Shown: piece after piece, positions 13,389 through 45,274 of the stretch
Layout of the letters: each line of letters starts with the position of its first letter
Numbering within the stretch: the stretch's first letter is position 1
NCBI GenBank assembly: GCA_036924085.1
Contig: JAVGWX010000005.1
Span: 91,643,764-91,707,763 of the forward strand
Source: Ariolimax columbianus
Lineage: Eukaryota > Mollusca > Gastropoda > Stylommatophora > Arionidae
DNA: 64,000 nucleotides
Direction: 5' to 3'
Notes under the pieces: model-generated
Told to the model about the DNA's origin: nothing
Seen by the model: the letters and a program-made list of their open reading frames with translations, nothing else
Databases searched by the model: none
Program-made: the position numbers and the translations under genes

Positions 13389-16322
13389 AATCCAGTCCAT
13401 GCTTGGGTAGCTTTTCTTTATGAAGCTTAGGGTAGTATCTCTCCTTTCTTTTTCAGTCTGGCAGTTTTTGTTTGCAATACCTGGTATATTTTCTACCACC
13501 TCTGGAAATATATCCTGCCTCCAGGTAGGTTTTCGTACAGTAGTGATGGGTTTAGGTGTTGTTAGTGCGTTTATGGGATCTTCGTGCATCTTTGCTTTGG
13601 CTATATCTGCAAAGTTTCTCCGCTTTAGTTTCCCATTTCCCAAATTGTTTAGTCTCTGGTGCATTGGATGGTCAGTCAGTCTTCGGAGTGTCTCTGACTG
13701 CAGCTGGGCTCTGCAGTCTCTTCTATCGGTCATGGATTGCAGTTTTGTAATCTTTTCAAGTTCTACAATTGGCGTTGACTTCATGCCACGTGTTATAATT
13801 CTCATGGCTTGGTTTTGAAGTTTGTTAACTTTATCGAAGTTCGCCTTCGCTGCTGTTGTCCATGCCGCAATGCTATACTCGAGAACTGGTCTCACTCTTC
13901 CAGTGTACAGTTTCTTTAGTATGCCTTCGTCTGCTCCCCAGCTTGTGCCAGCAAGTTTCCTCATGATTGCCATTCTTTCTCTGGCTTTCATTCGGTTTCT
14001 CTCAATCTGACTTTTCCATGTCATGCGCCGATCAAATGTGACTCCCAGATAGGTTGGGTTGTCGTTTGGCTGCAGGAATTTGCCATTTAGACTTAATTTG
14101 GTACTTTGGGGTTTTAATGAAAGCGAGAATATTGTGCATGTGGTTTTCTCCTCGTTTATTTTGACCAGCCATGAGTTCGCCCACTCTTCCAGCGATGTTA
14201 GGGCCGTCTGCATCCGATTTCTTGCTATGGTGAGATTTTTTTCAGAGGTCCACATAGCCAGATCGTCTGCAAACATTGAGCTATGGACTCTTCTTGGTAT
14301 ATTCTCTGTAATATCGTTTATATATACCAGGAAGAGTGTGGGTGACAATACTCCCCCTTGGGGTACTCCCTGCTCGAGTGTCACCTTTTTGCTCATCTGC
14401 CCTTGTACTTGGACTCTGGCCGTTCTTTGTTTGAGGTAGTGGTTGATCCACTTGTACATCTTCCCACAGACATCACTTCTTCTTAGCCTGACTCTAAGTC
14501 CATCCTTCTAGACTTTGTCAAATGCCTTTTCCAGATCAACCCAAACAGCTACTGTGTGTTTCTGTGCCTGGTAGGCATCTTCTATCTCCTGGGCTATGAG
14601 GATGACCTGGTCCTCAGTGGATCTGTGCTGTTTAAAGCCGGCTTGCTGTGTAATTAGTATTCGTTTTTCTTCCAGATGCCACATCAGTCTGGTGTTTATC
14701 ATCCGTTCCATCAGCTTGCCGACACAGCTTAGTAGGCTTATGGGCCTGTATCCATTTGGATCTGTTTTGTCCTTTCCTGTTTTTGGTACTGGTACCAGTA
14801 TTGCATCTTTCCATGCCTGTGGTACAGTTCCCTTTTTCCAGCTTTGGTTCAGGACCGATAGCAGTTTCTTCTTCGCTGTTTGGCCCAGCCCCTTCAGCAT
14901 TTCGTTTGTTATCCCGTCTTTTCCGGGAGATTTCCTTTTCTTTAGTGTTCTCATAGCCTCTTCCATTTCGCGCATTGTTAGTTTGGCCATTATGTGCTCT
15001 TCAGGAGCCGTATTTGTGTTTTCGTGTCCCTTTAGCTCTTCGCTAATGTCTGTATGCTTATCTGCAGGGACCTCGATGTGGTTTGCTCTGGCATAGTGAT
15101 CGACAAAGGCGTTTGCGGCTTTCTTACCTGTGATCAAGTTCTCGCCCTGCTTGATAGTAATCTGTTTATTTGACGGGGTTTCGTCGTTCATGGCTCTGAC
15201 TAGCTTCCATAGCTTGTTCCCGTCTTTGTCCAGGTTTACACTTTCCGTTTTATTTTTCCAGCTTTCTCTTGCTGTTTGCTTGAGAGTGTGTTTGTACTTC
15301 GCCGCGGCGGCTTTGAGGGCGATGTTTGCCTCCATGGATTTTTCTCGCTCTGCCATGTTCCTAGCATTTGTTACTGCATCTTCCACTTTCTGCAACTCAT
15401 CATTCTAGTAGGGCTTATAGTTTTTCCTAGCTCCTCTTGGGATGGTTTCAGTGGCGGCTTGCATTATTGCCTTGCTTAGGCTCTCTACCATGGGCTTCAT
15501 TTTTGTGTTTCGTGTGTTGATGGTTTCACACAGCCCATCTGTCAGGATTGCAAATCTGTCCCAGTCGGCTCGTTTGTAATTCCAACGTGGGAGCGGTTTT
15601 GTTTCCTGTGGGCCTACTTCCATGTCAATGGTTAGTCTGATCGGCCTGTGGTCGCTACCTGCCAGTTGGTTTAGCACCTGGCGGTCTATTTTATGGTGTA
15701 TGTCCTGTGTGTAGAAGGCCAAATCTGGAGTCGAGGTGGTATGCCATGTTCTTGAATAGAAGCTAGGGCTATCCTCCGGCCTATTGATTAGGGAGAGATT
15801 TGCATCTATCTCCCAATCTTCCACTTCGTCACCTCTGCTGTCTGTGTCAGAGTATCCCCATCTCTCCGAGTGGCTGTTGAAATCTCCAACTACTATGCAG
15901 TTGGAGTCTCTGACCTCCATACTCGAGAGCGATAGGTCTCTATTTGGTGGTCCGTACAGATTGAAAATGCGGAGCTTCGTCTCTTGAGTCATTATGTCAA
16001 CTCCTACAATTTCTGCTTGTCCGGTGTGATTGACAGATACCGCGCTACTCGGTATGCAGTTTCTGGTCAGTATCAGGACCCCTCCTTTGTGGCCTTCTCT
16101 ATCTAGACGGAAGGTCTGGTATCCTCTGATTGAGAATTTATGGTTATTGTTGAGGTGCGTTTCCTGGATACATGCCCCGTCAATCTTACCTTCATGCAGG
16201 TGGTGTGTTAGGGAAAGTTTTTTGTTAATGACTCCCTCCGCATTCCACTGTAGTATTTTGAGGGTCTTGAGGTTTTGGCCAATAGAAGTTGCCCATAGCC
16301 ATGTGCCTTGACTCCACGACAC
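13386..16322 (-). pseudogene. Endonuclease-reverse transcriptase ORF of copy A (I/Nimb-like), two TAG stops, no RNase H
   Basis: One reading frame runs through three open segments (16322-15405, 15395-14508, 14459-13386) broken by only two in-frame TAG codons, at 15407-15405 and 14510-14508. The second is TGG (Trp) in copy B (FDKVWKEG), so it is a point mutation. APE endonuclease motifs: ILQWNAEG, CIQETHLNNNH, NLYGPPNRD, VVGDFNSHSERWG, GSDHRPI. RT motifs: KRKSPGKDGITNEMLKG, NGYRPISLLSCVGKLMERM, VWVDLEKAFDKV (motif A), GVPQGGVLSPTLFLVYIND, and the catalytic box in MFADDLAMWTS. A distal block gives GRVRPVLEYSIAAWTTAAKA. The frame ends at an artificial stop where the mariner join occurs; the RNase H domain seen in copies B and C is absent. 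It is by far the best-preserved LINE ORF in the window. Confidence 0.9.
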
Positions 16323-17045
16323 ATGGGTGGGTGACCACCAGTAGTCAAGGGTGGGCCCCTTCGAGGCGTGAGGCCCGGCACTATCGCTGCCTGGCGGGAC
16401 TCCGCAGGATGAGCGCCATGCGTTTTTCTAATAGGTTGTACTGCCATCATACTGCGATTTACGTTGCACTGTTTTGTTAGGCTTGTGGCCCCGTGCATCC
16501 GATTTCAACAGGCGTTTCTGTAGGGATGCCCTCCTTAGCCTTTGGCTATCCCCAGCCTATCTGCAAGGCAGCAGTTGTTTATGATCAGAGTTGTCTCTCT
16601 TATGGAAGTTGTTTTACTAGACTATCGAGTCTTCACTACTCGTGTCTATAGGGTGCAATGATGATATGTGAGATGATAAATGAGATGGACTGGTTTACCC
16701 GGAAGAGAGGCAGTCCAGTGTGTCTGTATCCCAGGATCGTCACGTCCTGCCAGAAACGTAGCATTTGCATGTGAGTGGAGTATCTCTTTTTCCCTTTATT
16801 TTCTTGGCTTCTATGCAGGGATGGTACGCCTAGCAGTCCCCGCCACCTGGGGTGTTGACACAGTGGGGCAGGTGTGCAATGTCCGCTGGTCTGCATCTCT
16901 TTTGCGTCCAGCATGATAGTTATATTGCTGATAACGTACAGAGGTAGATATCGTAGCCGACGTGCATTTAGCCAGAGAACACGCCTGGTAATGTCACAGA
17001 GATGTTGTTCGCCTGGTGTGCGGACAGCTCTCATGGTCATTGGTT
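16323..17045 (-). other. Leader between 28S-derived segment and EN-RT ORF, copy A
   Basis: It aligns along its length with 42276-43060 in copy B, so it belongs to the element. It includes a 134-codon open frame (17040-16636) beginning at the 28S edge and a second frame (16498-16208) that overlaps the endonuclease start in another frame. Neither shows a gag/ORF1 motif (no CCHC, RRM or coiled coil), and copy B does not keep them open. I call it an untranslated leader, with a decayed ORF1 as the alternative. Confidence 0.6.
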
Positions 17046-17492
17046 GAGTCTCGACAGTTCACAGTGAGGTGGCTGCTCTACTGTTTTCGACACCCCGACC
17101 AGGTACTAAGTCTTTAGTTGGTGGTTTCGCACCCCATCGCCGTATAAGGTGAGTATCAAGCAGTTGTCCGCCCGCTTTGATCGGCGGACGGCAAGGACCT
17201 CTTGCTGCGGCTCTACCGGATATGGCTGGGGCGCAAGCCCCAGGTCTCGAGCATGTAGGAACCTCCCATTGCAGTGGTGCTGAGATTTTGGGCGAGATTG
17301 CGGCTTACAAGGGTTCGGCCGTAATCCCCCACATGGTAGCCTCGCGCCATTGGCTTATCAGCCTGGAACGTGAACCAAAGTGTCTGCGGCTCCTCTCGAT
17401 ATGAGCTGGTTTTCCGTAGCAATGCCCTGTCATTAGTAGGGTAAAACTGACCTGTCTTCAGATGGTCTATTTCCAGCACCCGTTCACTATTT
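17046..17492 (-). rRNA. 28S rRNA 3'-terminal segment, copy A (not a functional rRNA gene)
   Basis: Minus-strand sequence matches the last part of large-subunit rRNA. It has the gacaggtcagttttaccc block, a mutated sarcin-ricin loop (tcgagaggagccgcag, where functional rRNA has AGTACGAGAGGAAC), gctgataagccaatgg, gctaccatgtgggggatta, and the terminal ggtcggggtgtcg ... gcagccacctcactg. It ends close to the natural 28S 3' terminus. Most of 28S is missing upstream. Confidence 0.85.
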
Positions 17493-17729
17493 GGTCAGAC
17501 GAATTTACTGAGGGATTTTGTTTGTCAATGACCAGGTATTTGAAATCTGCGGTTTCTGCGGGGTTAAACACGATTTCCGTGGCGTTCTTTCATTAGAGTG
17601 TTTGAGAGCTGACTTGTCTTCCGTGAGTCTAATACCAGCGTACGTTCATTTTTAGACCCAAACGGTAGTGCTCTCGATTTGTCAGTCGTTCTACAGTATT
17701 GGCGTGTTCAGTCAAGTAAAGCCGCAGGT

Positions 17730-17765
<36 letters not shown>

Positions 17766-18070
17766 GCGAGACAATCAAGTTACTGGCCCCAGATTTTCGA
17801 GGGTATAATTCCAGCACATGTTCACTATTAGACCCCCCCGAATGTGCTCTCTTTTGACAGTCATTCTACAGTATTGGCGTGTTTAGTCAATTTTAGCCTC
17901 AGGCTCCACTCCTGATAGTGCTCTTCCGTCAATTCCTTTATCAAACACTGGATGCAGACCAACCGAGCCTCAGAGGGCATAACCCCAGATTTCTGAGGGT
18001 CTAAATCCAGCACCAGTTCCATATTAGACCCCAGAAAAGTGGTCTCGGCATGTCAGTCATTTCAGTGTTG
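17493..18070 (-). repeat. Tandem copies of the 18S/28S junction, copy A
   Basis: The 18S block ggaattgacggaag...cctgcggcttaattt, followed by the same unrelated ~40-nt joint and a stub of 28S (tctaat...tgctgg..ttagaccctc), occurs three times in total: once at the 18S end (~18150-18000) and again at about 17950-17820 and 17765-17640. Copy B has a single 18S block but two 28S stubs. The junction has thus been re-duplicated differently in each copy. Confidence 0.75.
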
Positions 18071-18095
18071 GCCGTGTTGAGTCAAATTAAGCCGC

Positions 18096-18144
<49 letters not shown>

Positions 18145-19303
18145 TTTGCAACCATACTTCCCCCGGAACCCAAACACTTTGGTTTCCCGGAAGCTGCCTG
18201 CAGAGTCATCGAAGCAACTCCTGCGGATCTCTAGTCGGCATCGTTTATGGCCAGAACTACGACGGTATCTGATCGTCTTCGCGCCTCTGACTTTCGTTCT
18301 TGATTAATGAAAACATTATTGACAAATGCTTTCGCAGTACCTCGTCTTGCGGCGATCCAAGAATTTCTCCTCTAACGCCGCAATACGAATGCCCCCGTTT
18401 GTCCCTGTTAATCATTACCTCCAGTTCCGAAAACCAACAAAATAGAACCGAGGTCCTATTCCATTATTCCATGCACCATTATTCAGGCAGCCGAGACCTG
18501 CTTTGAACACTCTAATTTTTCAAAGTAAACGCGTCGGCCACCCATGACGCTCAGCGAAGAGCACCCGTGGGAGAGAGCCGGCAGACGGTAGGGCAGGAGA
18601 CAACGGGCAGTGAACCGGCGCGAGCCGAACCGCCCGCCTGCGCCTGAGATCCAACTACGAGCTTTTAAACTGCAACAACTTTAATTTACGCTATTGGAGC
18701 TGGAATTACCGCGGCTGCTGGCACCAGACTTGCCCTCCAATAGATCCTCGTTAAAGGGTTTAAAGTGTACTCATTCCAATTACGGGGCCTCGAAAGAGTC
18801 CCGAATTGTTATTTTTCGTCACTACCTCCCCGTGCCGGGAGTGGGTAAGTTGCGCGCCTGCTGCCTTCCTTGGATGTGGTAGCCGTTTCTCATGCTCCCT
18901 CTCCGGAATCGAACCCTGATTCCCCGTTACCCGTTACAAACATGGTAGGCATGTCACGTACCATCGACATTTGATAGGGCAGACATTTGAAAGATGCGTC
19001 GCCGGCACATGAGGCCATGCGATCAGCACAAAGTTATCCAGAGTCACCAGTCACCAACCCCGCGAGGGGAAACGACGATTGGTTTTGAACTAATAAAAGC
19101 GCTTTTTCCGCGAGGGTCGGAGCTTGGTAAGCATGTATTAGCTCTAGAATTGCCACAGAAATCCAAGTAGGATCGTGTCATCTAAGGAACCTCGACTGAT
19201 GTAATGAGCCATTCGCGGTTTCACCGTGAGACAGTGTGAACTTAGACATGCATGGCCTAATCTTTGAGACAAGCATATGACTACTGGCAGGATCAACCAG
19301 ATA
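18071..19303 (-). rRNA. 18S rRNA 5' two-thirds, copy A (truncated, not functional)
   Basis: Minus-strand sequence starts at tatctggttgatcctgcc (natural 18S 5' end, + position 19303). It runs through the universally conserved 530-loop block gtgccagcagccgcggtaa and ends after gacggaagggcaccacc...tttgactcaacacgg at about 18071. It is about 1230 nt of the ~1800 expected, and the 3' third is missing. The retained part is well preserved, close to molluscan 18S as I recognise it. It is embedded in a retroelement, so it should not be annotated as an rRNA gene. Confidence 0.92.
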
Positions 19304-19945
19304 TCTGTCGGAGACGTACGTACAGCACACACCGGTCGGCGGAGGAAGGGTGTGTATAAAGCCTCGCTGGGACGACGGCCGCAGGGACCGACTGACGGGA
19401 CGGACGGACGGTTTGTTCCACCCGTCCCTCACTCCGTCGACCTAGGACCGCCTGAAGGGGCCTCCCACACGCACCAGACGACCGACCGACCGACCGACCG
19501 GGCTCGCTCGAGGAGGGATGGCAGCGCTCTGTGCAGAACGGATCCCAACGACCTCGGCGATGAATTTCACTGGGACTAGAGACAATTTGGCCTGACGGCC
19601 TGCCCTTCTCTGTTGGAGAACGCAGGGCCTCGAGGCAACGATTCCTGCTTTCCATTTGTCGGTCACAAGCTCTTTGCGAGAGTCGGACCACCAGCGAGAC
19701 GTACTGTCGAGCTCTGCTATAAGCCTTAGATAAATCACCATGGACGGACCACGTTTCCTGATACGGACCAGACGAGCGCACCTCGGTGGAGGAGCCGCTG
19801 CAACAAACCGCACCCAATTCGCTCTACGGGGAAAGGCAGGCGAGCGTTTTCCGCAAGCCCGCGCTTACGCTCCGCCTGGCGGGACTGAGATCGCTTTACG
19901 AACACTGGCTGAAATTGAGTCGCTGCGGCGAGACAACTACCCCAG
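19304..19945 (-). other. 5' external transcribed spacer-like segment, copy A
   Basis: GC-rich sequence with ccgtccgtcccgtcagtcgg and similar runs directly abuts the natural 18S 5' end. It is homologous to 39793-40401 in copy B, ending with the same ccgaccggtgtg...tctccgaca just before 18S. In an rDNA unit this position is the ETS. Whether it holds a Pol I start at its 5' end is inference. Confidence 0.75.
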
Positions 19946-22900
19946 ATTATGCCGAATGCAACTCTTGCTTTTTTATATCCTCGTCTGTCCCTACCTCCTT
20001 GTTAATGATACTTCATAGGCGTGTAAATACTTCCTAGGTGTGTAAATACTTCCTTGGTGTGTAAATACTTCCTAGGTGTGTAAATACTTCCTAGGTATGT
20101 AAATACTTCTTAGGTATGTAAATACTTCATAGGTGTGTAAATACTTCCTAGGTATGTACATACTTCCTTGGTGTGTAAATACTTCCTAGGTATGTAAATA
20201 CTTCCTAGGTATGTAAATACTTCCTAGGTGTGTAAATACTTCCTAGGTATGTAAATACTTCCTAGGTGTGTAAATACTTCCTAGGTGTGTAAATACTTCC
20301 TAGGTATGTAAATACTTCCTAGGTGTGTAAATACTTTCTAGGTATTAAATACTTCCTAGCTGTGTAAATACTTACTAGGTATGTAAATACTTCCTAGGTA
20401 TGTAAATACTTCCTAGGTATGTAAATACTTCCTAGGTATGTAAATACTTCCTAGGTGTGTAAATACTCCCTAGGTGTGTAAATACTTCCTAGGTATGTAA
20501 ATACTTCCTAGGTATGTAAATACTTCCTAGGTGTGTAAATACTTCCTAGGTATGTAAATACTTCCTAGGTGTGTAAATACTCCCTAGGTATGTAAATACT
20601 TCCTAGGTATGTAAATACTTCCTAGGTATGTAAATACTTCCTAGGTGTGTAAATACTTCCTAGGTATGTAAATACTTCCTAGGTATGTAAATACTTCCTA
20701 GGTATGTAAATACTTCCTAGGTGTGTAAATACTTCCTAGGTGTGTAAATACTTCCTAGGTATGTAAATACTTCCTAGGTGTGTAAATACTCCCTAGGTGT
20801 GTAAATACTTCCTAGGTATGTAAATACTTCCTAGGTGTGTAAATACTTCCTAGGTATGTAAATACTTCCTAGGTGTGTAAATACTCCCTAGGTGTGTAAA
20901 TACTTCCTAGGTATGTAAATACTTCCTAGGTATGTAAATACTTCCTAGGTGTGTAAATACTTCCTAGGTATGTAAATACTTCCTAGGTGTGTAAATACTT
21001 CCTAGGTATGTAAATACTTCCTAGGTATGTAAATACTTCCTAGGTGTGTAAATACTTCCTAGGTATGTAAATACTTCTTAGGTATGTAAATACTTCATAG
21101 GTGTGTAAATACTTCCTAGGTATGTACATACTTCCTTGGTGTGTAAATACATCCTAGGTATGTAAATACTTCCTAGGTATGTAAATACTTCCTATGTGTG
21201 TAAATACTTCCTAGGTATGTAAATACTTCCTAGGTGTGTAAATACTTCCTAGGTATGTAAATACTTCCTAGGTATGTAAATACTTCCTAGGTGTGTAAAT
21301 ACTTTCTAGGTATTTAAATACTTCCTAGCTGTGTAAATACTTCCTAGGTATGTAAATACTTCCTAGGTATGTAAATACTTCCTAGGTATGTAAATACTTC
21401 CTAGGTATGTAAATACTTCCTAGGTGTGTAAATACTCCCTAGGTGTGTAAATACTTCCTAGGTATGTAAATACTTCCTAGGTATGTAAATACTTCCTAGG
21501 TGTGTAAATACTTCCTAGGTATGTAAATACTTCCTAGGTGTGTAAATACTCCCTAGGTGTGTAAATACTTCCTAGGTATGTAAATACTTCCTAGGTATGT
21601 AAATACTTCCTAGGTGTGTAAATACTTCCTAGGTATGTAAATACTTCCTAGGTATGTAAATACTTCCTAGGTATGTAAATACTTCCTAGGTGTGTAAATA
21701 CTTCCTAGGTGTGTAAATACTTCCTAGGTATGTAAATACTTCCTAGGTGTGTAAATACTCCCTAGGTGTGTAAATACTTCCTAGGTATGTAAATACTTCC
21801 TAGGTGTGTAAATACTTCCTAGGTATGTAAATACTTCCTAGGTGTGTAAATACTCCCTAGGTGTGTAAATACTTCCTAGGTATGTAAATACTTCCTAGGT
21901 ATGTAAATACTTCCTAGGTGTGTAAATACTTCCTAGGTATGTAAATACTTCCTAGGTGTGTAAATACTTCCTAGGTATGTAAATACTTCCTAGGTATGTA
22001 AATACTTCCTAGGTATGTAAATACTTCCTAGGTATGTAAAAACTTCCTAGGTATGTAAATACTTCCTAGGTATGTAAATACTTCCTAGGTATGTAAATAC
22101 TTCCTAGGTGTGTAAATACTTCCTAGGTATGTAAATACTTCCTAGGTGTGTAAATACTTCCTAGGTATGTAAACACCTCTACCTCTTCCGGTGGCATTCC
22201 TCTCAGCCTGATTGGTTCTGTGTTTGCTGCATTTACCCTAATTATTTGTGTTTATTTCTCATGAATCTTCAACCCGATTGGTTTAAAGTTATAATCCAGT
22301 CTATCCAGATTCCTTTGCATTTGGTATTGGCTGTGGGACATAAGGGCTATATCATCCGCAAAATCCACATCTTCTAGCCATTCGTCCAAGGTCCATTGGA
22401 TTCCATTTGTTACTTTCATAATCCAGTCCACTGCCAGGATGAACTGAAAGGCGACAGCAGGCAACCCTGCCGAACCCCTTATTTAATGTTGAATGGCTAT
22501 GAGAGTTGTCCCCTGTGCATAAATCTACATTGAATATACGTCTGTCTAATTATGTTTGTGAGCTTTTGAGGAATTCTGTAGTGCCTCAATAGTTTCCAGA
22601 GTAAATCTCTGTCCAAACTGTCGAAAGCCTTTTCATAATCAACGAAATTTATTATACAAACTCGAGTTCCATTCCAAGGATTTCTTACCAATTATCCACT
22701 TTGTTGCAATCTGGTTAATGCATGATATATTCTGTCTGAATTCCACCTGCTCATCCCATATCTTGTTATCCACTGCCCTTTTCAACACTTCTGGTATTAC
22801 TCTATTTAACACTTTTTCCGGCATTGATAATATTATTCTTCTGTGGTTTTTGCATTCCTGCAAATCTCCCTTCTTAGACAATTTCATCCGGTAGCCGTCT

Positions 22901-24660: not shown

Positions 24661-24661
24661 G

Positions 24662-25525: not shown

Positions 25526-25789
25526 AACACTTACTAGTTCAAACCTGGTACCTTATACCTATAAACAAAACAATCAACCCATTGGTCACACGTTCCCAGA
25601 CGGTTTCCAGGGCAAATAAAAATGGCCGCTGTTTCCTTTCCTGTATGTCGCAAGAGGAAAATACAGTAGATTGTAAATGTGGTTGGCAACATCACCATGT
25701 TAAAACCACTGCTATAAAACCGCAATGCAAATCATTGAAATGGAGCTAATTCGAAATGCTGGTTACTGTGAGACAAATGAAATTGTGAG

Positions 25790-31247: not shown

Positions 31248-31490
31248 AACGGCGTGGGCTAGTGATTAAGTGACACGGCTCACAATCCGAAGGTGCTGGG
31301 TTCGATCCCCTTCACAGCCCTGGCCGTTACCCCGACAAAACAAACCCTTAGAAAATGCAGGAGGAAGCAGACCCGTACATAAAATTCATCAAGTCGGATG
31401 CACTAGGCAGACAGACTCAAAATAAAAACCATAGTGCAACGCACACTGCCTTGGGGAATAGAGAAATAAGGCGAACGAAAGAAATAAAAG
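31248..31490 (+). mobile_element. tRNA-derived SINE, copy 1
   Basis: The head has Pol III internal promoter boxes: A-box-like gtgggctagtgattaag and B box ggttcgatccc with normal spacing. A unique body follows (ccgttaccccgacaaaac, then cccttagaaaatgcagg), ending in an A-rich tail (gaaagaaataaaagaaaac). A second copy, in minus orientation and interrupted by LINE copy C, is at 36690-38225 and aligns from the A-box region to the tail. The tRNA fold is degraded, so it is not a tRNA gene. Confidence 0.85.
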
Positions 31491-32740: not shown

Positions 32741-32744
32741 TTGT

Positions 32745-34120: not shown

Positions 34121-34642
34121 CTGTTCTTCTTCCGGCTCTGAATCTACATTGGCTTTCTGGGAGGTGGTGGCTTTGTTCAATAACAACAACAATAACACCA
34201 ACAAGGTCTTTATTCATTGATGTCTCTACACACAAACAACTCATATCATACAATAAAAAACAAACAAGATATAGGCTTTCAAAGTCATAACCATTAAACA
34301 CGTTACACGTTGAAAAATAATTCAGTGGCAGGGAAAATTGCATACCTGTTTTATTGGGTGTCGCAAACGTCGTTGATATCAAGCAACTTTATTTTCTGTG
34401 CCCTCCGTGCGACCTTTAATGTCCTAGCTCATGAATTCGTATTGCTTTTATTTCAAAAGCCATCAATCTATATATTGTGTGGCGTCTTTTTATTTCTGAA
34501 GCTCCGCTGTCTGTTGTCATAGTCTCGGGCAGCTGAAACAGTTGTCGACGTCATTGTCAAATGTCAAAACATGACCCTCTCTATCTGTCTATGTAATGAT
34601 ATGCGTGTAAATATTCAATTTCTCTGCCTGTCTATGTAAGAC

Positions 34643-35030
34643 ATCATCACCATCAGGTGCCTTGCCAATTAGTGTTGGCGATCATGGACATCCATCCGAT
34701 TCTATCACGTGTGTAGTTTACCAACTCTGTTCTTGATTGCCCCCCGTGCCATTCTCTCAGGCTGTCCTACGTCTTCTCTTTCTGCCTTCCTCTGCCTCTC
34801 TTTCCTCCTATCTTTCCTCCTATTTTTTGTCACAACGTGCTCCAAACCGCCTCTTCTCAATGCATGCCCAAAACACGATGACTGCCTTGTTCTGATCTTT
34901 GCAATGAGTTGTCTTTCTGTTTGTGCCTCGTCGAGTACTGTATCATTAGTCTTCATTGCAATCAATGGGACCCGCAGCATAAGACAAGCATGCCAACATT
35001 CCAAATGTCTCTTTCTGTCTATGTTTGACA
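34643..35030 (-). pseudogene. LINE 3' fragment with (ATG)n-type tail
   Basis: Minus-strand frame contains KIRTRQSSCFGHALRRGGLE, matching the distal FGHVMRRGGLEHL block of RTE-like LINEs. The 3' end is the rc of acatcatcaccatcagg at about 34641, an ATG-repeat tail like the LINE ending at 50556. The flanking ORF 35109-34705 includes this fragment but is not a host gene. Confidence 0.7.
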
Positions 35031-36690
35031 TACATGACAATACTATCACTTTTGATGTCTGTCTATATAAGATAAGAATGGTAATATTCCATTTGTAACT
35101 ATGATTCATGATTGTATGTTGAACATAAAAACAATTAATATTTTGACATTAAGACTCAACATAGAAAACTCAAAGACTTGATTCAATATGAAACAAAAAG
35201 CAATTCATGTATTATAAAGTATTATTGTTACAACAATATCAAAAAGAAAAAGACACTAAACTAAACATGACAAACTCTATCTAACACACGTGATGTGACT
35301 AATTTACCTAGATTCTCTGTCTTCTATCGTAACTACATAATTCACTAAACTGTATATATATAAATCTTGTACTACAATTTAGTGACTAACTAGTTAAACT
35401 CGTTCTCTCTTACGTTTGTCTAGACCGTCGGCGTTGCGGTGAATCTGCCGCTCTGGATGAACCAAGCTGTAGAATAACATCTTGTCACATGGGTTAGGAT
35501 GAGCTCCCGGTGGAGACCTAAGATACAACTGACTGTTGGTTCAAAATGATTCCCACACGTTAGGAACTCGTCCCTCTAGTGCCCGCGTTAAACCCGTTCT
35601 GAGAGAAGGTGTACCATAAGGATTTTTAGAGTGTACCTCTCTTTTCTGACCAGGACATGAGATTTTTATCCCAGAGTTCTCCTGGCACTATTCTAACAAG
35701 ACGTGGGATAGTATCCCAGGGGTCTCCTGACACTATTCTAACAAGACGTGGGATAGTATCCCAGGGCTCTCCTGATACTTTTCTAACAAGACGTGGGATA
35801 GTACCCTATGGTTCTCCTGACACAATTCGACTCAGACATTGGATTCACCAGGCTCTTTTTGGTACGAGACTTTGAGATTTGTATCCCATGGTTCATCAAA
35901 CCCCTTTCAACTCAGACACTAGGTTCGCTAAACCATTTATCGACAAGAGACTTTGGGATGTGTATACCACGGTTCGCCAGATCCCTTTCAAATCAGACAG
36001 TGGTTTCTCCGGATCATTTGTTGAAGCAAGACATAACCTTCTCACTCGAAGTGATTAAATGTCCTTCTCATCTAGCTTATTACAGGAAATCCACCATTCA
36101 CACAAATGAGCAGTAGTGCGATTGCCCCAGATGCATAATGGGATAATTCCCTGTTAAACTCTGATCTTTCTGTCTTTAGCTTCCTACTTTTATTGGCTCT
36201 TTAGCCAATATGGCGCTGGTCACGAGGTACTCTGTCCCTTCCTCTTTGAGTGGTCAGCAGTCAATCTTAATCCAGCAACCTCCTTGTTTTTGCTGTTGTC
36301 TGTTGTCTACTTGTCACATTGTCCTTCTAAATGTGACATCCTGACGTTAAATTACATGTCGACTAACCCCTTTATACGCTCTCTGGACAGCGTATAATAC
36401 ACCAATTGGGCTGCCTAAAACCCCCACCATTTTTGGCTCAACACTCTTCAAGACTCGCCGGTCTCGCTAGTCTGGAGAGACTACGAGAGGGTGAACTGTA
36501 ACTGAACTGTTCCTGAATGAATTAAATATTATATAACTGTCCCAACTAATTTTAGCTCCAAAGAGTAAGCTGCTGGCTCTAACTCTTCTGCTCCCTGATA
36601 CATATCTTTGTTACATACTGCTCCATGGCACATAACTCTGTTGCAAATGTCCCTGTCTTTGTACTACAAGCATGTAGCTATTCCGACTGC
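35031..36690. other. Intron sequence with a small tandem repeat, no genes
   Basis: From 35660 to 35835 about four imperfect 45-bp units of gggatagtatcccaggg...ctaacaagacgt occur. Each holds an inverted repeat (gggatagtatccc). The rest, rich in pyrimidines, has no supported ORF. It may be a decayed non-coding element, but I could not define its ends. Confidence 0.5.
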
Positions 36691-36771
36691 CTTTTTCTGT
36701 CTGTGTATTTTATGTTTTAATTTTGTTTGCTTTCGCTTTATTTTTCTATTCCCCAGGGCAGTGTGCGTTTT
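36690..36771 (-). mobile_element. tRNA-derived SINE, copy 2, 3' part
   Basis: Minus-strand sequence cgcacactgccctggggaatagaaaaataaag matches the SINE tail at 31440-31480. It is the continuation of the SINE part at 38024-38225, split by LINE copy C. The shared 12 bases agtgtgcgtttt (+ strand, 36760-36771) form one half of the target duplication. Confidence 0.85.
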
Positions 36772-38023
36772 TTCTTCTACTTCTTCGTACGCTGTCAGAC
36801 GTCAACATGAATTTGTTCAAAGAAAGCAGTTGTCATCCTGAGGCTGACGACACTGCCATAGAGCTAGTCTAGTGTTGGCACTAGTGATGGCGACATGTGC
36901 TTTCTTTGGTCCTCGTATGTCGGGCAATTTTGCAGCAGATGTTCAACGGTCATTTTCCCTGTCCTACAGGTGCATTCGTCAGTGCCACCTATCTTCAGTT
37001 TATTGAATAGATGGTACCTCAGTCTTTTGTGGCCTGTGCAGAGTCTGAAGACCGCGACCTGCTCTCTTCTGTTCAACTGGTAATAGGCATCATTTTTTGT
37101 GTAGCCAGTATGCTCTGTTTCCCATTTGGCCATGTATCTGGCCCTAATAAACCTTTTGGACTCTTTGCTGGTCACACTAGAATCTGGTTGTGGTAATCTT
37201 GCATCTTCATTTGCCAGTGTGTCTGCCTCCTCTTTGTCTTGAATGTTACAGTGGGATGGAACCCACTGTACCACTACTCTTTTTGGTGCTGATTGCTGGC
37301 ATAGTTGACAGAGTACTGCTCTTAAATCATTAGGTTCTGTATTTTTCTAGCTTTTAGTGATGTAACCACGAACAGGGCATCTGTAAACAGGACTGTCTGG
37401 CATTCATTGCTTTCGCCTGTCAGCATTGCTTCTACTGCAACCTTCAGTGCCTCTGCCTCCGCTCTGAAATTGCTTGAGAATTTTCCAGTTGGCACTGACA
37501 GTGTTATTTTTCTACCGTTTGTTAGGCTCAAAAATACTCCTTCCCCTCCATTCTGTGTTATGTTTGTCACAGAACCGTCGGTGTTTCATGGGTCCAGTCC
37601 ATGCTTGGGTAGTTTTTCGCTAGGTACCTCAGGGTTGTCTCTTCTTTCTTTTTCAGTCTGGCTGTTCTTGTTTCCAATATCAGGTATATTTTCTGCCACC
37701 TCTGAAATAATATGCTGCTTCCAGATGGGTTTGCGTACAGTAGGGATGGGCTTTGGTGTTGTTATGGTGTTCATAGGGTCTTCGCTCATCTTTGCTTTGG
37801 CTATTTCTGCAAATTTTCTCCGCTTTAGTTGCTTTTTTCCAAATCTATTTAGTCTCTGATGCATTGGTTGGTCTGTCAGTCTTCTTAGTTTCTCTGCTTG
37901 CTGCTGGGCTCTGCTGTCTATTCTATCGGTCATGGATTGCAGATTTGTAATCTTTTCAAGTTCTACAATTGACGTTGACTTCATGCCTCCTGCTATAACT
38001 CTCATGGCTTGGTTTTGAAGTTT
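36772..38023 (-). mobile_element. LINE copy C: 5'-truncated RT/RNase H end of the composite's LINE family
   Basis: Minus strand: the RT tail (QAMRVIAGGMKSTSIVELEK onward), RNase H with DGSVTN, FRAEAEALK, LFTDAL and WVPSHCNIQDKEEADTLA (the four acidic active-site positions D, E, D, D are all visible, across a frame change), then a C-terminal CTCRTGKMTVEHLLQNCP knuckle. The 3' end is cagcgtacgaagaagtagaagaa. Flanked by 12-bp direct repeats agtgtgcgtttt at 36760-36771 and 38024-38035, so it inserted into the SINE by normal target-primed insertion. It shows where the family's 3' end lies. Confidence 0.9.
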
Positions 38024-38225
38024 AGTGTGCGTTTTATTATGTCGTTTTTTATTTTGCGTCTGTCGATCCACTCCATTCGACTGCAGCATGCATTTTATGT
38101 GAAGGTATACTTCTACCTGCATTTTCTAAGGGTTTGTTTCCCCTGGGTAACGGCCGGTGCTCTAATTGGGTAGCGAATCCAGCACCTTCGTCTTGTGAGC
38201 CATTTCACTTAACAACTAGCCCTCC
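38024..38225 (-). mobile_element. tRNA-derived SINE, copy 2, 5' part
   Basis: Minus strand: ggctagttgttaagtgaaatggctcac (A-box region), gaaggtgctggattcgctaccc (decayed B box), then ccgttacccaggggaaacaaaccctt, matching SINE copy 1. Interrupted at its 3' side by LINE copy C. Confidence 0.88.
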
Positions 38226-38660
38226 CTGTCCATCCTATGTATGACATTCATGACCATATTTCCACTTTCTCTGTGTCTATATATGACATGCATTACAATA
38301 CATTTTGTATGGCATTTCTTTTTTCCTCAGTCTGCCTCTTCTAGTGTTCGTCAATAGATATTTTAATTGCCCTGTTTTTTTAAATAGCTTCCTCTGTTCC
38401 TTAATCTCACATTTACTATATGTTTTTCCTGCTGCTATAACCAAGATTTATGTCTTTCTCTTATGCTGAGTTTTACACAATAATTCCTACTGTAGTTCTT
38501 AGCACTTGTTTGAATACAATTTGTTCAAGAATAAACAATAAAGAGGGAAAACAGGAGGAAGTGTTGGATGAGGAGTAAAACATACGCATATAAGTGACGA
38601 AGTGAGGCCAAACATATAACCTTTCCAAAATAAATTAACACACATTTTGAAATGTTTCAG

Positions 38661-39272
38661 GATGCCGTTGAGGAAGAAAACGCAAGACCAAACAACGATA
38701 TAATCGAATCAGCGCCTCCAGACTTGAACGAAGAAAACAACGAAAAACAAATCTCGATTACTAAAACTCCCAGCAAGATATTTCAGAAAAAGTATTCGAA
38801 GGAAGGAAAATTTAGAGAGCTAAAAAAGTTAGGAACATGGGGACAGAAGATTTGTAGAACCAATGACGGAGATGTAGCAAAAATAGAGGATGCGAACCCA
38901 AGCGTAAATCAGAAGCAGTATTCTGTGAAAGGTGTACTAGCAAAACAAGCGGTAAAGACGAAGATAAAGGAAAAACAAGAAAACCAGTTACAAAAAAAAT
39001 ACGAGAAACTATTTGGTGAAAAGATGCGTAGAGGTGGTAATGTTAAGACTTGCATAGAGCCACAGACAGAAGATGACAAAGAAATTAAAGTTAATGGTAA
39101 GAAATTCAAAAACGTTCCTGGAAATGTAGGAAAAGGTATTTTGCCCGAAGGTGTTTGGAACGAATATTCTTCAGGACTTCAGAAATTTATACGTGGAAAG
39201 ATCAAGAGTCATCCATTAGTGGAGACTGTTTTTCAGATGTTGTATGAAACTCAAATGGAATCTGTGCGCAAG
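38661..39272 (+). CDS. Host gene, module 1, exon type 3 (612 nt, 204 codons)
   Basis: Acceptor aaatgtttcag|GAT at 38661 and donor CGCAAG|gtaagtgg after 39272, phase 0 at both ends. The product is charged and lysine-rich. Two signatures are shared with the exon at 57752-58549: PSKIFQKKYSKEG at residues 37-49, followed by a Trp-Gly (GTWGQK), and a C-terminal HPLVETVFQMLY...MESVRK. A related but weaker pair is in the giant exon (1049-1071 and 1279-1295). No known fold or catalytic motif is seen. The composition and Lys/Arg runs would fit a structural or scaffold protein, but this is a guess. Confidence 0.85.
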
Positions 39273-39344
39273 GTAAGTGGCTGCATGCAGGCGCGTAAAT
39301 ATAGTGAATGAATCTCTGTGTATCTAAACCTGTAGCAGCCAAGA

Positions 39345-39778
39345 CTTGTTTCAGGGTAAACATACTGACCAAGACCCCTACATCATGTCATGCTCAGGCG
39401 AAATACACTGACCAAGATCCTCACCTCATGTCAGGGTAAGATAAAACATACAGACTTAGACCCCTAACTAATGTCAGGCTCAATTGAAATATACTGCTCA
39501 AGATCCTCATGTGAGGGTCATGTTGGATATAATGTCAAAGATCCCTACCTCTTGTCAGGGTCATGTTGGATGTACTGACTAAGATCACTACCTCATGTCA
39601 GGGGCATGTGACGTTTACTATCCAAGATCCCTTCGTCTTGTCAGGGTCAAGTGAGATATACTAACCAAGATCCCCCACCTCATGTCAGGGTCATGTGACG
39701 TATACTGAACAAGATCCCTACCTCATGTCAGAATCAAGTTGAATATACTGACGAAAATCCCCACCTCACGTCAAGATC
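39345..39778. repeat. Irregular repeat: tactgaccaagatccctacctcatgtcagg
   Basis: About eight units of roughly 55 bp alternate (tactgac)caagatcccyacctcatgtcaggg with variable linkers. The array ends where the composite element B target duplication begins. Confidence 0.85.
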
Positions 39779-39792
39779 AGATGAAACAAAAA
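39779..39792 (+). repeat. Target-site duplication, 5' side of composite B
   Basis: agatgaaacaaaaa lies directly before the element's first base. The partner at 45275-45288 (agatgaaagaaaaa) differs at one of 14 positions. Confidence 0.75.
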
Positions 39793-40401
39793 CTGGGGTT
39801 AGTCTCTCGGTGGCTCGATTGGCTCGCATCCAGTGTTCCAACAGTGATCTCAGTCCCGACAGGCAGAGTGAGAGCGCGGATTGCCTACAAAGCTCGCCCG
39901 CCTCCCCCCGGCACTCTAGCAGGACCAGTTTGGTGGAGTCGTGCCGCTGGTAAGGGTGCGTTACTGTAGTCCGTATCGAGAAGCTTTGTCAGTCCGTGTG
40001 GTTCGTCGAAGGCTAGCGCGTATAGCCAATCTCGACAGTTCGTCTCGCTTGTGGTCCTTCTCTCGCAATGAGCTTTGGACCGGCAAATGGAAAGCAGGAA
40101 TCGTGACTAAAGGCCCTGTCCTCGCCCGACCAACCGGTCAGAAAAGGGCAGGCCGTAGGTAAAATCATCTCCAGTCCGTTGGGATCCGTTCTGCACAGAG
40201 CGCTACCATCCCCCTCCGAGCCAGCCTGGTCGGTCTGTTGGTGTGTGTATGGGGGCCTGGTCCAGGCGGTCCCTAGGTTGACAGAGTGAGGGGCGGAACA
40301 ACCGTCCGTCCGTCAGTCGGTCCCTGCGGCCGTCCTCGTGAGGCTTTTTACACATCCATCCTTCGCCGACCGGTGTGAGTGGTTCGTCCGTCTCCGACAT
40401 A
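39793..40401 (+). other. 5' external transcribed spacer-like segment, copy B
   Basis: Begins ctggggttagtctctc, the same terminus as copy A. Shared blocks with A include cagtgttc, gatctcagtcccg, gcaaatggaaagcaggaatcg, ttgggatccgttctgcac and gtcggtccctgcggccgtc. It meets the natural 18S 5' end at 40402. Confidence 0.75.
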
Positions 40402-41528
40402 TATCTGGTTGATCCTGCCAGCAGTCATATGATTGTCTCAAAGATTAAGCCATGCACGTCTAAGTTCACACTGTCTCACGCTGAAACCGCGAATGGCTCA
40501 TTGAATCAGTCGAGGTTCCTTAGATGACACGATCCTACTTGGATAACTGTGGCAATTCTAGAGCTAATACATGCTTACCAAGCTCCGACCCTGGCGGAAA
40601 GAGCGCTTTTATTAGTTCAAAAGCAATCGTCGTTTCCACTCGCGGGGTTGCGGCGTCCCCACTGGGGACTCTGGATAACTTTGTGCTGATCGCATGGCCT
40701 CATGCGCTGGCGACGCATCTTTCAAATGTCTGCCCTATCAAATGTCGATGGTACGTGACATGCCTACCATGTTTGTAACGGGTAACGGGGAATCAGGGTT
40801 CGAATCCGTAGAGGGAGCATGAGAAACGGCTAACACATCCAAGGAAGGCAGCAGGCGCGCAACTTACCCACTCCCGGCACGGGAAGGTAGTAACTAAGAA
40901 TAACAATACGGGGCTATTTCGAGGCCCCGTAATTGGAATGAGTACACTTTAAACCCTTTAACGAGGATCTATTGGAGGGCAAGTCTGGTACCAGCAGCCG
41001 CTGTAATTCCACCTCCAATAGCGTATATTAAAGTTGTTGCAGCTAAAAAGCTTGTAGTTGGATCTCAGGCGCAGGCGGGCGGTCCGGCTCGCGCCGGTTC
41101 ACTGCCCGGTGTCTCCTGTTCTACCGTCTGCCCGCTCTCTCCCGCGGGGAGCTCTTCGTTAGAGTGTTCAAAGCAGGCCTCGGCTGCCTAATAATGGTGC
41201 ATGGAATAATGGAATAGGAGCTCGGTTCTATTTTGTTGGTTTTCGGAACTGGAGGTAATGATTAACAGGGATAAACGGGGGCATTCGTATTGCGGCGTTA
41301 GAGGTGAAATTCTTGGATCGTTGCAAGACGAGCTACTGCGAAAGCATTTGTCAAGAATGTTTTCGTTAATCAAGAACGAAAGTCAGAGGTGCGAAGACGA
41401 TCAGATACCGTCGTAGATCTGACCATAAACGATGCCGACTAGCGATCCGCAGGAGCTGCTTCGATGACTCTGCGGGCAGCTTCCGGGAAACCAAAGTGGT
41501 TGGGTTCCGGGGGAAGTATGGTTGCAAA

Positions 41529-41563
<35 letters not shown>

Positions 41564-41600
41564 AAGGAGTGCAGCCTGCTGCTTAATTTGACTAAATACG
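40402..41600 (+). rRNA. 18S rRNA 5' two-thirds, copy B (truncated and mutated)
   Basis: Starts tatctggttgatcctgcc and ends at about ttaatttgactaaatacg. Conserved positions are damaged: the 530-loop block reads taccagcagccgctgtaa instead of gtgccagcagccgcggtaa. About 45 nt present in copy A around cgtcatgggtggcc are deleted near 41160. This is a pseudogene copy and would mislead rRNA-based annotation or barcoding. Confidence 0.92.
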
Positions 41601-42275
41601 CAAACACTTTAATAAGTGTCAGGACGATAGCACTTTGGTTGGGTCTAATAGGGAACGTGTGCTGGAATTAGACCCTCAGAAGACAGGTCAGTTTTACCCT
41701 ACTAATGACATGGCGTTGCTACGGTAATCCTGCTCAATCCAAGAGGAATCGCAGATTTCAGACTCTTGGTCATGGACTGACTAATAACTCTCTCTTGATT
41801 CGTTGGGTCTAATAGGGAACGGCTGCTGGTATTAGACCCTCGGAAGACAGGTCAGCTTTACCCTACTAAAGACAGGGCGTTGCTACGGTAATCCTGCTCA
41901 ATTCGAGAGGAGTCGCAGGTCTCAGACACTTGGTCCACGTGCTTGGCTGATAAGCCAATGGTGCGAGGCTACCATCTGAGGGATTACTGCCGAATGCCTC
42001 TAAGCCGGAATCCCGCCCTGAATCTCAGCACCACTGCAACGGGAGGCAACGAAATGGTTGGGACCTGGCGCTCGCGCCTCAGCCCGACACGGTCGAGCCG
42101 CAGAAAGAGGTCTCTGCCGTGCCGCCGAGGATAGCGAGCGGGGAGCTGCTCGATATTCACCCCATACGGCGTTGAGGTGTGAAACCACTAGTAGAAGACT
42201 TAGTTCTCGGTCGGGGTGTCGTAAGCAGTAGAGCAGCCACCTCACTGCGAACTGTTGAGACTCAGCCCTTGATCA
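41601..42275 (+). rRNA. 18S/28S junction and 28S rRNA 3' end, copy B (not functional)
   Basis: After a ~35-nt joint of unknown origin, 28S starts at ctaatagggaacgtgtgctgg near 41645. The first stub runs into a second start of the same 28S sequence at about 41804 (period ~165). The second reads through gacaggtcag, a mutated sarcin-ricin loop (tcgagaggagtcgcag), gctgataagccaatggtgcg, and the 28S terminus (ggtcggggtgtcgtaag ... gttgagactcagccc) near 42265. ITS1, 5.8S, ITS2 and most of 28S are absent, as in copy A. Confidence 0.87.
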
Positions 42276-43131
42276 TGAGATATGTCCGCATACCAGGCGA
42301 ACAACATCTCCATGTCATGACCAGGCTTGTCCCCTAGTTAAATGCACTCCTGCCTCGCTCTATACCTCTGTCTGCTATCAGTCATCCCAATGGACGCAGA
42401 AGAGATGCAGGCCAGCGGACATTGCACCTCTGCCCTATTGTGACAACCTCCCAGGTGGCGGGGAATGCTAGGCGTACCATCACTGCAGAGGAGCCGAGAC
42501 AATATAGGGAGCAAGGAGATACCCCACTCATATGCATATGCTACGTTTCTGTCAGGACGTGACGATCCTGGGACACAGAGACACTGGACTGCCTCTCTTT
42601 CGGGATAGTACAAACTAGTACATAGTCCATCATATCATATCATATCATTGTCACACCCTATAGACACGAGTGGGGAAGACTCGATAGTCCTTCAAGACAA
42701 CTTCCCTAAGAGAGACAACTCTTACCACAAACAACTGCTGCCTTGCAGATAGGCTGGGGACAGCCAAACGCTAAGGAGGATATCCCTACAGAAACGCCTG
42801 TTGAAATCGGATGCACTGGGCCACAGGCTTAACGAAACAGTGCAACGTATATCGCTGTATGATGACGGTACAACCTAACATAAAAAAAGTGTGGTGCTCA
42901 TCCTGTGGAGTCCCGCCAGGCAGCGAGAATGCCTGGCCACACGCCTCGAAGGAGCCCATCCAATGCTACTGGTGGGCACCATCCCATGTGCTGTGGAGTC
43001 AAGGCACAAGGTGATGGGGCAAAAACTATTGACCAAAAACCCAAGACCATCAGAATACTTCAATGGAGAGCGGAGGGAGTCATTAACAAAAGCTCTCCCT
43101 AACGCATCACCTGCATGAAGGTAAGATTGAC
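42276..43131 (+). other. Leader of composite B
   Basis: Homologous to 16323-17045 of copy A (shared blocks such as tacgtttctgtcaggacgtg and gcctgttgaaatcggatgca). The endonuclease start (copy A: LKILQWNAEGVINKK) corresponds to about 43055-43090 but is shifted in frame here. Confidence 0.65.
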
Positions 43132-45250
43132 GTGGCATGTATCCAAGAAACGCACCTCAACAACAACCACAAATTCTCAATTAGAGGATACCAGACCTTC
43201 CGTCTTGATAGAGAAGGCCACAAAAGAGGGTTTCTGATACTGACACGTAACTGCATACAGAGTGGCGCGGTAGCTGTCAATGAAAAAAAACACACAATAG
43301 TGGTGTGGGTGGATTTAGAGAAGGCATTTGACAAGGTATGGAAAGAGGGACTTAAAGTCAAGCTACGAAGAAGTGAAGTTTGTGGGAAAATGTACAGATG
43401 GATCAGCCACTACCTCGAAAACAGAACAGCCAGAGTTCAAGTACAAGAGCAGATGAGCAAAAAGGTGACACTTGAGCAGGGAGTACCCCAAGGGGTAGTA
43501 CTGTCACCTACACTTTTCCAGGTGTATATAAACAAAATCACAGAGAATATACCAAGAAGAGTCCACAGCTCCATATTTGCAGACGATCTGGCTATGTGGA
43601 CCTCTGAAAAAAATTTCACTATAGCAAACAATCGGATGCAGCAGTCCCTAACATCGTTGGAGGAGTGGGCGAACTAATGGCTGGTCAAAATAAATGAGGA
43701 AAAAACAACATGTACGATATTAACGCTTTCAAATAAACCACAGAACACCAAAATAAGTCTTAACGGCAAATATCTGCTGCCAAACGAAAACCCAAACTAC
43801 CTAGGAGTCACATTTGAACGGCGCATGACATTGAAAAGTCAGATCGAGAGAAACCGAATGAGAGCCAAACAAAGAATGGCAGTCATGAGGAAACTTGCTG
43901 GCACAAGCTGGGGAGCAGACGAAAGTATACTAAAGAAACTGTTCACTGGAAGAGTGAGACCAGTTCTCGAGTATGGCATTGCGGCATGGACAACAGCAGC
44001 AAAGGCAAACTTTGATCAAATTAGCAAACTTCAAAACCAAGCCATGAGAGTTATAACAGGAGGCATGAAGTCAACGCCAACTGCAGAACTTGAAAAGATT
44101 ACAAATCTGCAATCCATGACCGACAGAAGAGACATCAGAGCCCATCAGCAAGCAGAGAAACTCAGAAGACTGACAAACCATCCAATGCATCAGAGACTAA
44201 ATAGTTTTAGAAATGGGAAACTAAAGCGGAGAAACTTTGCAGAAATAGCCAAAGCTAAGATGGGCGAAGACCCTATGAACACCATAACAACACCAAAGCC
44301 CATCCAAACCTACCTGGAAGCAGCATACCATTCCGTAGGTTGTAGAAAATATACCAAATATTGGAAACAAGAACAGCCAGATTGAAAAAGAAAGAAGAGA
44401 CATAACCCTGAGGTACATAGCGAAAAACTACCCAAGCATGAACTGGACCCATGCATATACCGACGGTTCTGTAACAAACACAATACAGAACGGAGGGGCA
44501 GGGCTATTCCTGAGCCTACCAAATGGTAGACAAATAACACTGTCAGTGGCAACTGGAAAATTACCAAGCAATTTCAGAGCGGAGGCAGAGGCACTGAGGG
44601 CTGCAGTAAAAGCAATGCTGATAGGCAAAAGCAATTAAAGCCAGATAATCCTGTTTACAAATGCCCTAGTCGTATTCACAGCACTAAAAAGCCAGAAAAA
44701 TACTGAACTTAATTATTTAAGAGCAGTACTCTGTCAACTATGCCAGCAGTCCGCACCAAAAAGAGTAGTGGTACAGTGGGTTCCATCCCACTGTAACATC
44801 CAAGGCAACGAGGAGGCAGACAGACTGGCAAAAGAAGGTGCAAGACTACCATAACCAGATTCTAGTGTGACCTACGAAAAGTCCTAAAGGCTTATTAGAG
44901 CCAGATCCATGACCAAATGGGAAACAGAACATACTGGCTACACAAAAAACGATGCCTATTACCAGTTGAACAGAAGAGAGCAGGTCGTGGTCTTCAGACT
45001 CCGCACAGGCCACAACAGACTGAGGTACCACCTATTCAATAAAATGAAGATAGGTGGCACTGACGAATGCACTTGTGGTACCGGGAAAATTATACCGCTG
45101 AACATCTGCTGCAAAACTGCCCGACCTACGAGGACTAGATAAAGCACATGTGGCCATCGCCAGTGGCAATACTAGACAAGCTCTATGGCAGTGTCGACAG
45201 CCTCAGGATGACCGCTGCTCTTTTCGAAAAAATACAGGTTGACGTTTGAC
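43132..45250 (+). pseudogene. Deleted EN-RT-RNase H ORF of copy B
   Basis: Opens with the endonuclease block CIQETHLNNNHKFSIRGYQT, but after NCIQSGAVAVN it jumps in frame to KKHTIVVWVDLEKAFDKVW. About 1.4 kb coding for most of the endonuclease and the N-terminal RT has been lost. RT then follows: GVPQGVVLSPTLFQVYINK, FADDLAMWTSEK, stop at 43675, then RVRPVLEYGIAAWTTAAKA (44385). RNase H is in other frames: HAYTDGSVTNTIQNGG, FRAEAEALRAAVKAM (44438-44638), LFTNAL, WVPSHCNIQGNEEADRLAK. The third acidic active-site residue is Asn (TNAL) where copy C has Asp (TDAL). The final CTCGTGK...LNICCKTA is a decayed zinc knuckle. Confidence 0.88.
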
Positions 45251-45274
45251 AGCGTACGAAGAAGAAGAAGAAGA

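Follow-up and report, generated by a model that had tools for sequence, protein, structure and literature searches.

How does the beginning of a ribosomal RNA (rRNA) transcript come to stand in front of a retrotransposon, and do the two travel together? The question is raised by a 64,000-nucleotide (nt) stretch of the slug Ariolimax columbianus (positions 91643764-91707763 of contig C5, within the 2.29-Gb host assembly), hereafter the window, in which two elements, A and B, join parts of the ribosomal DNA (rDNA) unit to a long interspersed nuclear element (LINE). The answer has two parts of different firmness. The composite moves as a whole, its insertions being dispersed and bounded by target-site duplications (TSDs), and it occurs both as a ~7 kb form bearing the open reading frame (ORF) and as a ~3 kb ORF-less form. 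It represents a family of non-long terminal repeat (non-LTR) retrotransposons headed by the start of the host pre-rRNA, and the head is probably renewed by recurrent template switching onto host pre-rRNA.

The order of external transcribed spacer (ETS), 18S, 28S, leader and LINE that the original prediction had read from A and B is borne out by Rfam, by Pfam and by the alignment of the two copies. Element A (13391..19947, minus strand) opens with a 5' ETS head (19304..19947) of type 3, the type closest to today's host ETS, from which it differs at 31/632 positions (4.9%). The 5' two thirds of 18S follow (18072..19300; 21/1188 differences from host 18S, 1.8%), then tandem 18S/28S joints (17620..18071) that enclose two start-heads, one of 48 nt at 17988 and one of 27 nt at 17792, a diverged 28S 3' end (17026..17428), the leader between 28S and endonuclease (16283..17025), an open endonuclease (EN) frame (15405..16427) and the reverse transcriptase (RT) in two open pieces split by a stop (13391..15404). 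Element B, on the plus strand, is framed by a 5' TSD (AGATGAAACAAAAA, 39779..39792) and a 3' TSD (AGATGAAAGAAAAA, 45275..45288). Between them lie a type 1 ETS head (39793..40404), the 5' two thirds of 18S (40405..41590), an 18S/28S joint in which 18S with a short deletion passes into 28S (41591..41640), a 28S 3' end whose first part is duplicated with a 164-bp period (41635..42283), the leader (42284..43045), the 5' part of EN with RT (43046..44447), the RNase H region and 3' end with broken frames (44453..45256) and a (GAA)n tail (45257..45275). The composite nature of both is thus confirmed within altered extents, A being cut at its 3' end and B lacking ~1.47 kb of EN-RT at 43281/43288. The short single 18S/28S joint that had been described does not stand, as the joint region actually holds tandem pieces.

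The eukaryotic small subunit (SSU) model of Rfam matches over its positions 4-1116 of 1831 (19300-18164, minus, 894 bits; 40405-41509, plus, 818 bits) and the large subunit (LSU) model over positions 3005-3399 of 3401 (17428-17026, minus, 65 bits; 41874-42283, plus, 144 bits), the gathering score being 50 for either model. From the protein side, A contains Exo_endo_phos_2 (PF14529, 2.7e-19), Exo_endo_phos (PF03372, 8.3e-11) and two matches to RVT_1 (PF00078, 6.6e-18 and 3.7e-14), that is, the apurinic/apyrimidinic-type endonuclease and RT by which a non-LTR retrotransposon is recognised. RNase H (PF00075) was found in B (9e-08), which also has RT, and in a third copy of the LINE, C (2.5e-06); its place after RT is the mark of RNase H-bearing LINEs of the I superfamily, to which the present LINE may belong, like the mollusc Nimbus and Ingi elements. 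The alignment of A with B spans ETS, 18S, joint, 28S, leader and ORF from CTGGGG on and stops at the element ends, so that their flanks differ; a segmental duplication was rejected on the same ground. B is bounded by a 14-nt imperfect duplication, a length reached by 0/1000 random windows, while a TSD was looked for in the flanks of A and none was found.

The host genome was then searched with the ETS-18S-joint of B, as the original prediction had proposed, and further copies came to light in which this LINE stands behind the joint. Out of 4701 first-look candidates 40 places were scored, into which 47 match rows were grouped. They are distributed over 19 contigs; one of them is B, and the other 39 are 85-90% identical to the query. 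The 20 best-scoring of the 39 were fetched, a set biased toward full-length heads because it was ranked by score with a query starting at the first transcribed position (+1). ETS, 18S and 28S stand in the same order and on the same strand in 20/20 fetched copies; EN, RT and RNase H are all present in six, part of EN in three (among them L026 and L036, which are nested) and no EN in the remaining 11. The literal CTGGG occurs at the start in 15/20, the other five being variants by one to a few bases, and the sequence 5' of the start differs among the copies as judged by eye.

Mobility was assessed through TSDs in 20 sequences, namely 19 fetched copies and B; L036, a nested copy that extends past the end of the sequence obtained, was excluded. 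A duplication of 9-15 nt enclosing head and LINE, of a quality that under 1% of the control pairs (380 mismatched pairs of flanks) attained, was present in 11/20, B included, and followed directly after a GAA-type tail. These copies therefore have the variable-length TSD and simple-repeat 3' tail of LINEs, and a single TSD around head and LINE means that the two moved as one unit, as had been proposed. The TSD-bounded forms with the ORF measure 7081, 6768, 6982 and 6922 bp, and those without it 3128 bp (L023), 2993 bp (L024), 3550 bp (L033) and 2429 bp (L028); in the short forms the ~30 nt that end the LINE follow directly on the leader. A second shared rearrangement, an extra 28S piece (~nt 104-308) within the leader, was observed in L026, L027, L033, L035 and L037. 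It is well known that rDNA is often misassembled, and assembly errors or rDNA orphons lying by chance beside LINEs could be suspected. The same order at 20/20 fetched sites, the TSD around the whole composite in 11/20 and the private changes borne by each copy make this explanation exceedingly improbable, and it was set aside given the repeated structure and the TSDs.

The 5' end of the element coincides with the start of the host rDNA unit. A search for the conserved 3' end of 18S gave 37 matches in the host genome, and the sequence of three rDNA units was obtained: two on contig C222, in which the ETS is complete, and one on C50, in which its 5' half is missing. The C222 locus L047 reads GGAATGTATATT directly followed by ATCTGGGGTAGTTG, then the ETS, then 18S at 6795; the second C222 unit is 99.97% identical to it over 3.1 kb and the C50 unit 99.8% identical over the 3' half of the ETS and 18S. 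The element begins just after the position of the TATATT box of the rDNA (TATATT followed by ATCTGGGG), +1 being L047:6157. The 21-mer CGGAATGTATATTATCTGGGG, which spans this start, has 130 genome-wide matches at no more than two mismatches, against three for its reversed control; the 100 of the 130 that were listed are all exact, 98 of them on small contigs and mostly spaced by ~12.3 kb or multiples of it. At the edges of the TSDs, according to our reading, five of the 11 copies start exactly at the A of ATCTGGGG (L024, L026, L028, L030 and L033), four are compatible with the same A (L023, L025, L031 and L038) and two start 1-2 nt downstream (L021 and B). Furthermore, in L042 the last bases of an 18S are joined independently to exactly this A. 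Of A and B, both predicted to begin at ctggggt(t)ag, A probably starts at 19947, with ATCTGGGG.

The position of the element start fits a start by RNA polymerase I (Pol I), which we infer to be the enzyme concerned. The suggestion that the element carries a Pol I-type start holds inasmuch as its 5' end equals the rDNA start beside the TATATT box, and fails for the promoter: rDNA sequence from upstream of +1 was not seen 5' of the element in any of the 20 fetched copies, nor in A or B. Ordinary copies carry the start without the promoter. The promoter core is present in two other dispersed loci. On contigs C67 and C190 some promoters are 3-6 kb further apart than the 12.2 kb that is usual, and C67 has one inverted promoter; the long intervals may contain R elements, the present LINE or gaps.

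The relation of the head to the host rDNA was examined through divergence. Between A and B the differences amount to 5.1% in 18S, 23.4% in ETS, 19.5% in 28S, 16.6% in the leader and 12.8% in EN and RT, with a step from 0.05 to 0.27 at the 18S/joint boundary; the RT shows a synonymous divergence (dS) of 0.27 and a ratio of nonsynonymous to synonymous divergence (dN/dS) of 0.34, indicating constraint on the LINE. The differences are distributed evenly along 18S (dispersion 0.84, p=0.66), clustered in the ETS (2.14, 0/2000 permutations) and mildly clustered in 28S (1.36, p=0.012) and leader (1.35, p=0.0065). Over 22 copies three ETS types were distinguished: t1 (n=13, with B), t2 (n=7) and t3 (n=2, A and L038). 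The t1 and t2 consensuses differ at 54/631 ETS positions (8.6%), 4.6% of 28S and 10.3% of the leader, and at 0/1196 positions of 18S; with t3 counted in t2, the values are 8.7% for ETS and ~1/1196 for 18S. With respect to the host, t1 differs at 118/621 (19%) and t2 at 95/626 (15%) ETS positions, each at 3/1196 in 18S, and the mean distances of single copies (ETS/18S) are 22.3%/3.4% for t1, 17.4%/2.7% for t2 and 6.6%/1.7% for t3. ETS distance to the host rises with 18S distance (rho 0.70, p 3e-4, over 22 copies that are not independent). The 18S variants present in at least three copies are scattered across copies, mostly C-T/G-A, and not diagnostic of subfamilies. Changes shared in 28S (23/183 columns with agreeing outgroups) were considered as a sign of age and dropped, because the 18S count is alike (58/594) and host 28S sequence was lacking. 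Taken together, these patterns suggest that the head tracks host rDNA, with older and newer versions in different copies, as would be expected if the element keeps renewing it.

The same figures bear on a simpler history, in which a pre-rRNA was captured once and then inherited, the 18S being held constant by selection inside the element, for instance through binding of ribosome-assembly factors or ribosomes. In its favour are the same joint across the compared copies, the linkage between ETS type and leader type that most copies show and the clustering of ETS differences in blocks (the dispersion of 2.14 above). Against it, A and B differ in 18S at 33/608 conserved and 15/196 variable sites, so that changes at conserved sites are not significantly rarer (p=0.30). 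Moreover, the identity of the t1 and t2 18S consensuses over 1196 nt, the uncoupling of ETS and leader types in some copies and the nearness of A's ETS to the present host ETS are all at odds with one ancestral head. Selection on the in-element 18S fits the data less well and, as the only reason for a constant 18S, is disfavoured; the whole history appears distinctly improbable. Of the predicted capture of pre-rRNA as a 5' region, the presence of the head remains, whereas a single capture followed by simple inheritance is unlikely and repeated renewal is suggested.

Renewal is also suggested by mixed types and by unusual joins. Leader typing covers 20 sequences, A and L035 being outside the typed set. 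A t2 ETS stands on a t1-type leader in L027, L033, L037 and the nested L026; L034 and L036 combine t2 ETS with t2 leader, and L038 combines t3 ETS with t2 leader. Eight dispersed loci in which 18S is complete to its end were obtained, and seven of them (all but L042) run into internal transcribed spacer 1 (ITS1), with element sequence further downstream. In L041 and L044 the host ITS1 stops before the end of the readable reference and the 28S part follows within ~15 nt, and in L046 the leader (nt 351) appears within 20 nt of the readable ITS1 end. The 18S stretch is 99.3% identical to the host in L040 and 99.7% in L043; in the remaining loci of this kind the longest stretch matches host rDNA at ~91-98%, and in L042 at 98.8-100%. 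Another kind of join is found in L052, which begins 17 nt upstream of +1 and in which 18S nt ~200-218 is directly joined to EN. Finally, 27-50 nt starts fused to 18S TAAAGGAATTGACGG occur internally in 14/30 sequences, two of them in A; we take these to have been 5' ends once, now layered beneath newer ones.

The main rival to renewal by template switching places master copies inside the rDNA. LINEs residing in shortened rDNA units would be driven by Pol I, recombination with neighbouring units would keep their ETS and 18S host-like, and the dispersed copies would be their offspring. L053, on contig C12, fits this reading: it is a composite that comprises ~640 nt of rDNA spacer with the promoter core, ETS, 18S 1-362, 28S and the start of the leader. 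The long promoter spacings on C67 and C190 point in the same direction. L053 is, however, ~13% from host rDNA and therefore old, and the joins differ in kind, with EN attached to 18S nt ~200-218, +1 to the 18S end, and 28S or leader to ITS1; like the internal heads, they resemble template jumps. No composite was seen inside an rDNA array, a weak argument given that the array stretches were few and partly N. On balance resident masters seem rather unlikely. L053 adjoins an inverted LINE piece, and the region L053-L055 (C12:62833260-62843260), a promoter-bearing composite beside an inverted 3' LINE part, resembles twin priming or a nested insertion.

In the preferred reading, renewal by template switching, the starting point would be an RNA composed of the 5' ETS beginning at +1, ~1.2 kb of 18S counted from its 5' end, the old joint, the 28S 3' end, the leader and the ORF. 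Candidate sources of this RNA are a promoter of the LINE itself, copies residing in rDNA, and the rare dispersed ones that bear an rDNA promoter. The RT would copy this RNA up into the LINE's own 28S/18S region and there switch to host pre-rRNA, aided by homology in 18S or by end-to-end jumping. It would then copy the pre-rRNA to its 5' end, so that each new head would reflect the rDNA of its time and terminate at the Pol I start. Old heads would stay inside as fossils, and renewed composites could found new subfamilies. End-to-end template jumping by the R2 enzyme is cited in one paper (PMC2718515), and another proposes template switching or RNA ligation as the origin of 28S/LINE-1 chimeras (PMC13174262). 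A stronger version can be put forward tentatively, at somewhat less than even confidence: (nearly) every round that succeeds may renew the head, through copy-choice onto current pre-rRNA with the carried 18S as a homologous landing pad, and the element may propagate on Pol I transcripts. As the head would be renewed at (nearly) every round, the copies would form a dated fossil record of the host 5' ETS.

Several observations weigh against renewal by template switching. One real difficulty is timing, since the host ETS would need to have changed by 19% while t1 copies are 3.4% from host 18S; therefore either ETS evolution was ~5 times faster than copy decay or several ETS classes coexisted. Distinct rDNA types within one genome are reported for zebrafish (PMC5513064); the three slug units read belong to one class. 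A t1 ETS with a t1 leader, found in 10/20 fetched copies and in B, is expected under simple inheritance, and the ETS varies more than 18S among copies within types too. The comparison with the host covers ETS and 18S, the host 28S reading N in the stretches obtained, and the exact ITS1 join is not visible in 4/7 loci because the host reference is N beyond ~300 nt. The TSD is below the 1% level in 9/20 tested copies. Template switching onto host pre-rRNA is read indirectly, from the varied joins and heads.

The window contains further repeats. The LINE copy C (36769..38023, minus) is 5'-truncated and headless, with a likely TSD that was judged without a control; an unrelated 200-bp repeat pair (31256-31447 and 38222-38024) has one copy abutting the 5' end of C. 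In the region 19948-22173 a 19-bp minisatellite of 114 copies lies ~60 nt from A, in the region 39362-39792 a 43-bp minisatellite lies ~20 nt from B, and tandem arrays are abundant elsewhere (55 rows, e.g., 1-3670, 52317-53709 and 63273-64000). Beyond the host, a search of viral contigs for the LINE RT gave two stretches, neither confirmed, and a search of them with an 18S pattern found nothing. A 1764-bp record deposited without annotation as a circular plasmid of Acinetobacter baumannii (L010; NZ_CP050525.1, plasmid pVB7036_2) matches the window's eukaryotic 18S at 76-78% over its first ~1.2 kb and appears to be contamination of eukaryotic origin.

Loss of the 5' end is frequent among LINEs, and they require promoters. 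Here the start of a very abundant transcript is attached to a LINE ORF and is seemingly renewable, which would offer a natural system for the study of RT template switching onto pre-rRNA and possibly a LINE that lives on Pol I transcripts. In addition, the rDNA transcription start is hinted at to the base from genomic DNA alone, and past host 5' ETS sequences appear to be kept as copies. There is also a warning, in that chromosomal 18S and ETS sequences need not be rDNA.

With regard to known systems, SINEs (short interspersed nuclear elements) derived from rRNA include 5S-derived families and the 28S-derived SINE28. The ~3 kb non-autonomous slug form resembles them in consisting of an rRNA head and a LINE tail, a likeness confined to the short form. 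They are based on 5S or 28S, whereas the slug family sets 5' ETS, 18S and 28S on an ORF-bearing LINE and on its deletion form. Searches of open-licence PMC full text brought up such SINEs, R1/R2 and LINE-1/28S chimeras and no LINE family with a pre-rRNA head, Repbase and subscription journals lying outside this scope. The Nimbus and Ingi elements of molluscs share endonuclease, RT and RNase H with the slug LINE, and in the paper on them 'rRNA' occurs once, in the reference list, and '18S' not at all (PMC11203168). Among the R1/R2 elements, R2 is said to depend on co-transcription and R1 transcripts can include upstream 28S, so that these LINEs too are tied to rRNA; they use fixed 28S sites, whereas the slug family is scattered and holds the rRNA inside the element (PMC2718515). 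An rDNA-targeted LINE of the R1/R2 type was rejected, as the 40 places are spread over 19 contigs and, judged by eye, the 20 fetched copies have different 5' flanks. The LINE-1 chimeras, reported from 18 loci at which the 28S fragments have a median length of 269 nt, are similar in having an rRNA piece, mostly in sense orientation, at the 5' end of a LINE within one insertion (PMC13174262). Foreign RNA 5' of the LINE inside one TSD was likewise found in 11/20 slug copies. Those chimeras differ from a dispersed family with its own subfamilies and a shared ETS, 18S and 28S head from the rDNA start (PMC13174262); the slug copies are not isolated independent events, since joint and subfamilies are shared, though other joins exist. 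The element is a LINE, and what is unusual about it is the biology of its 5' end.

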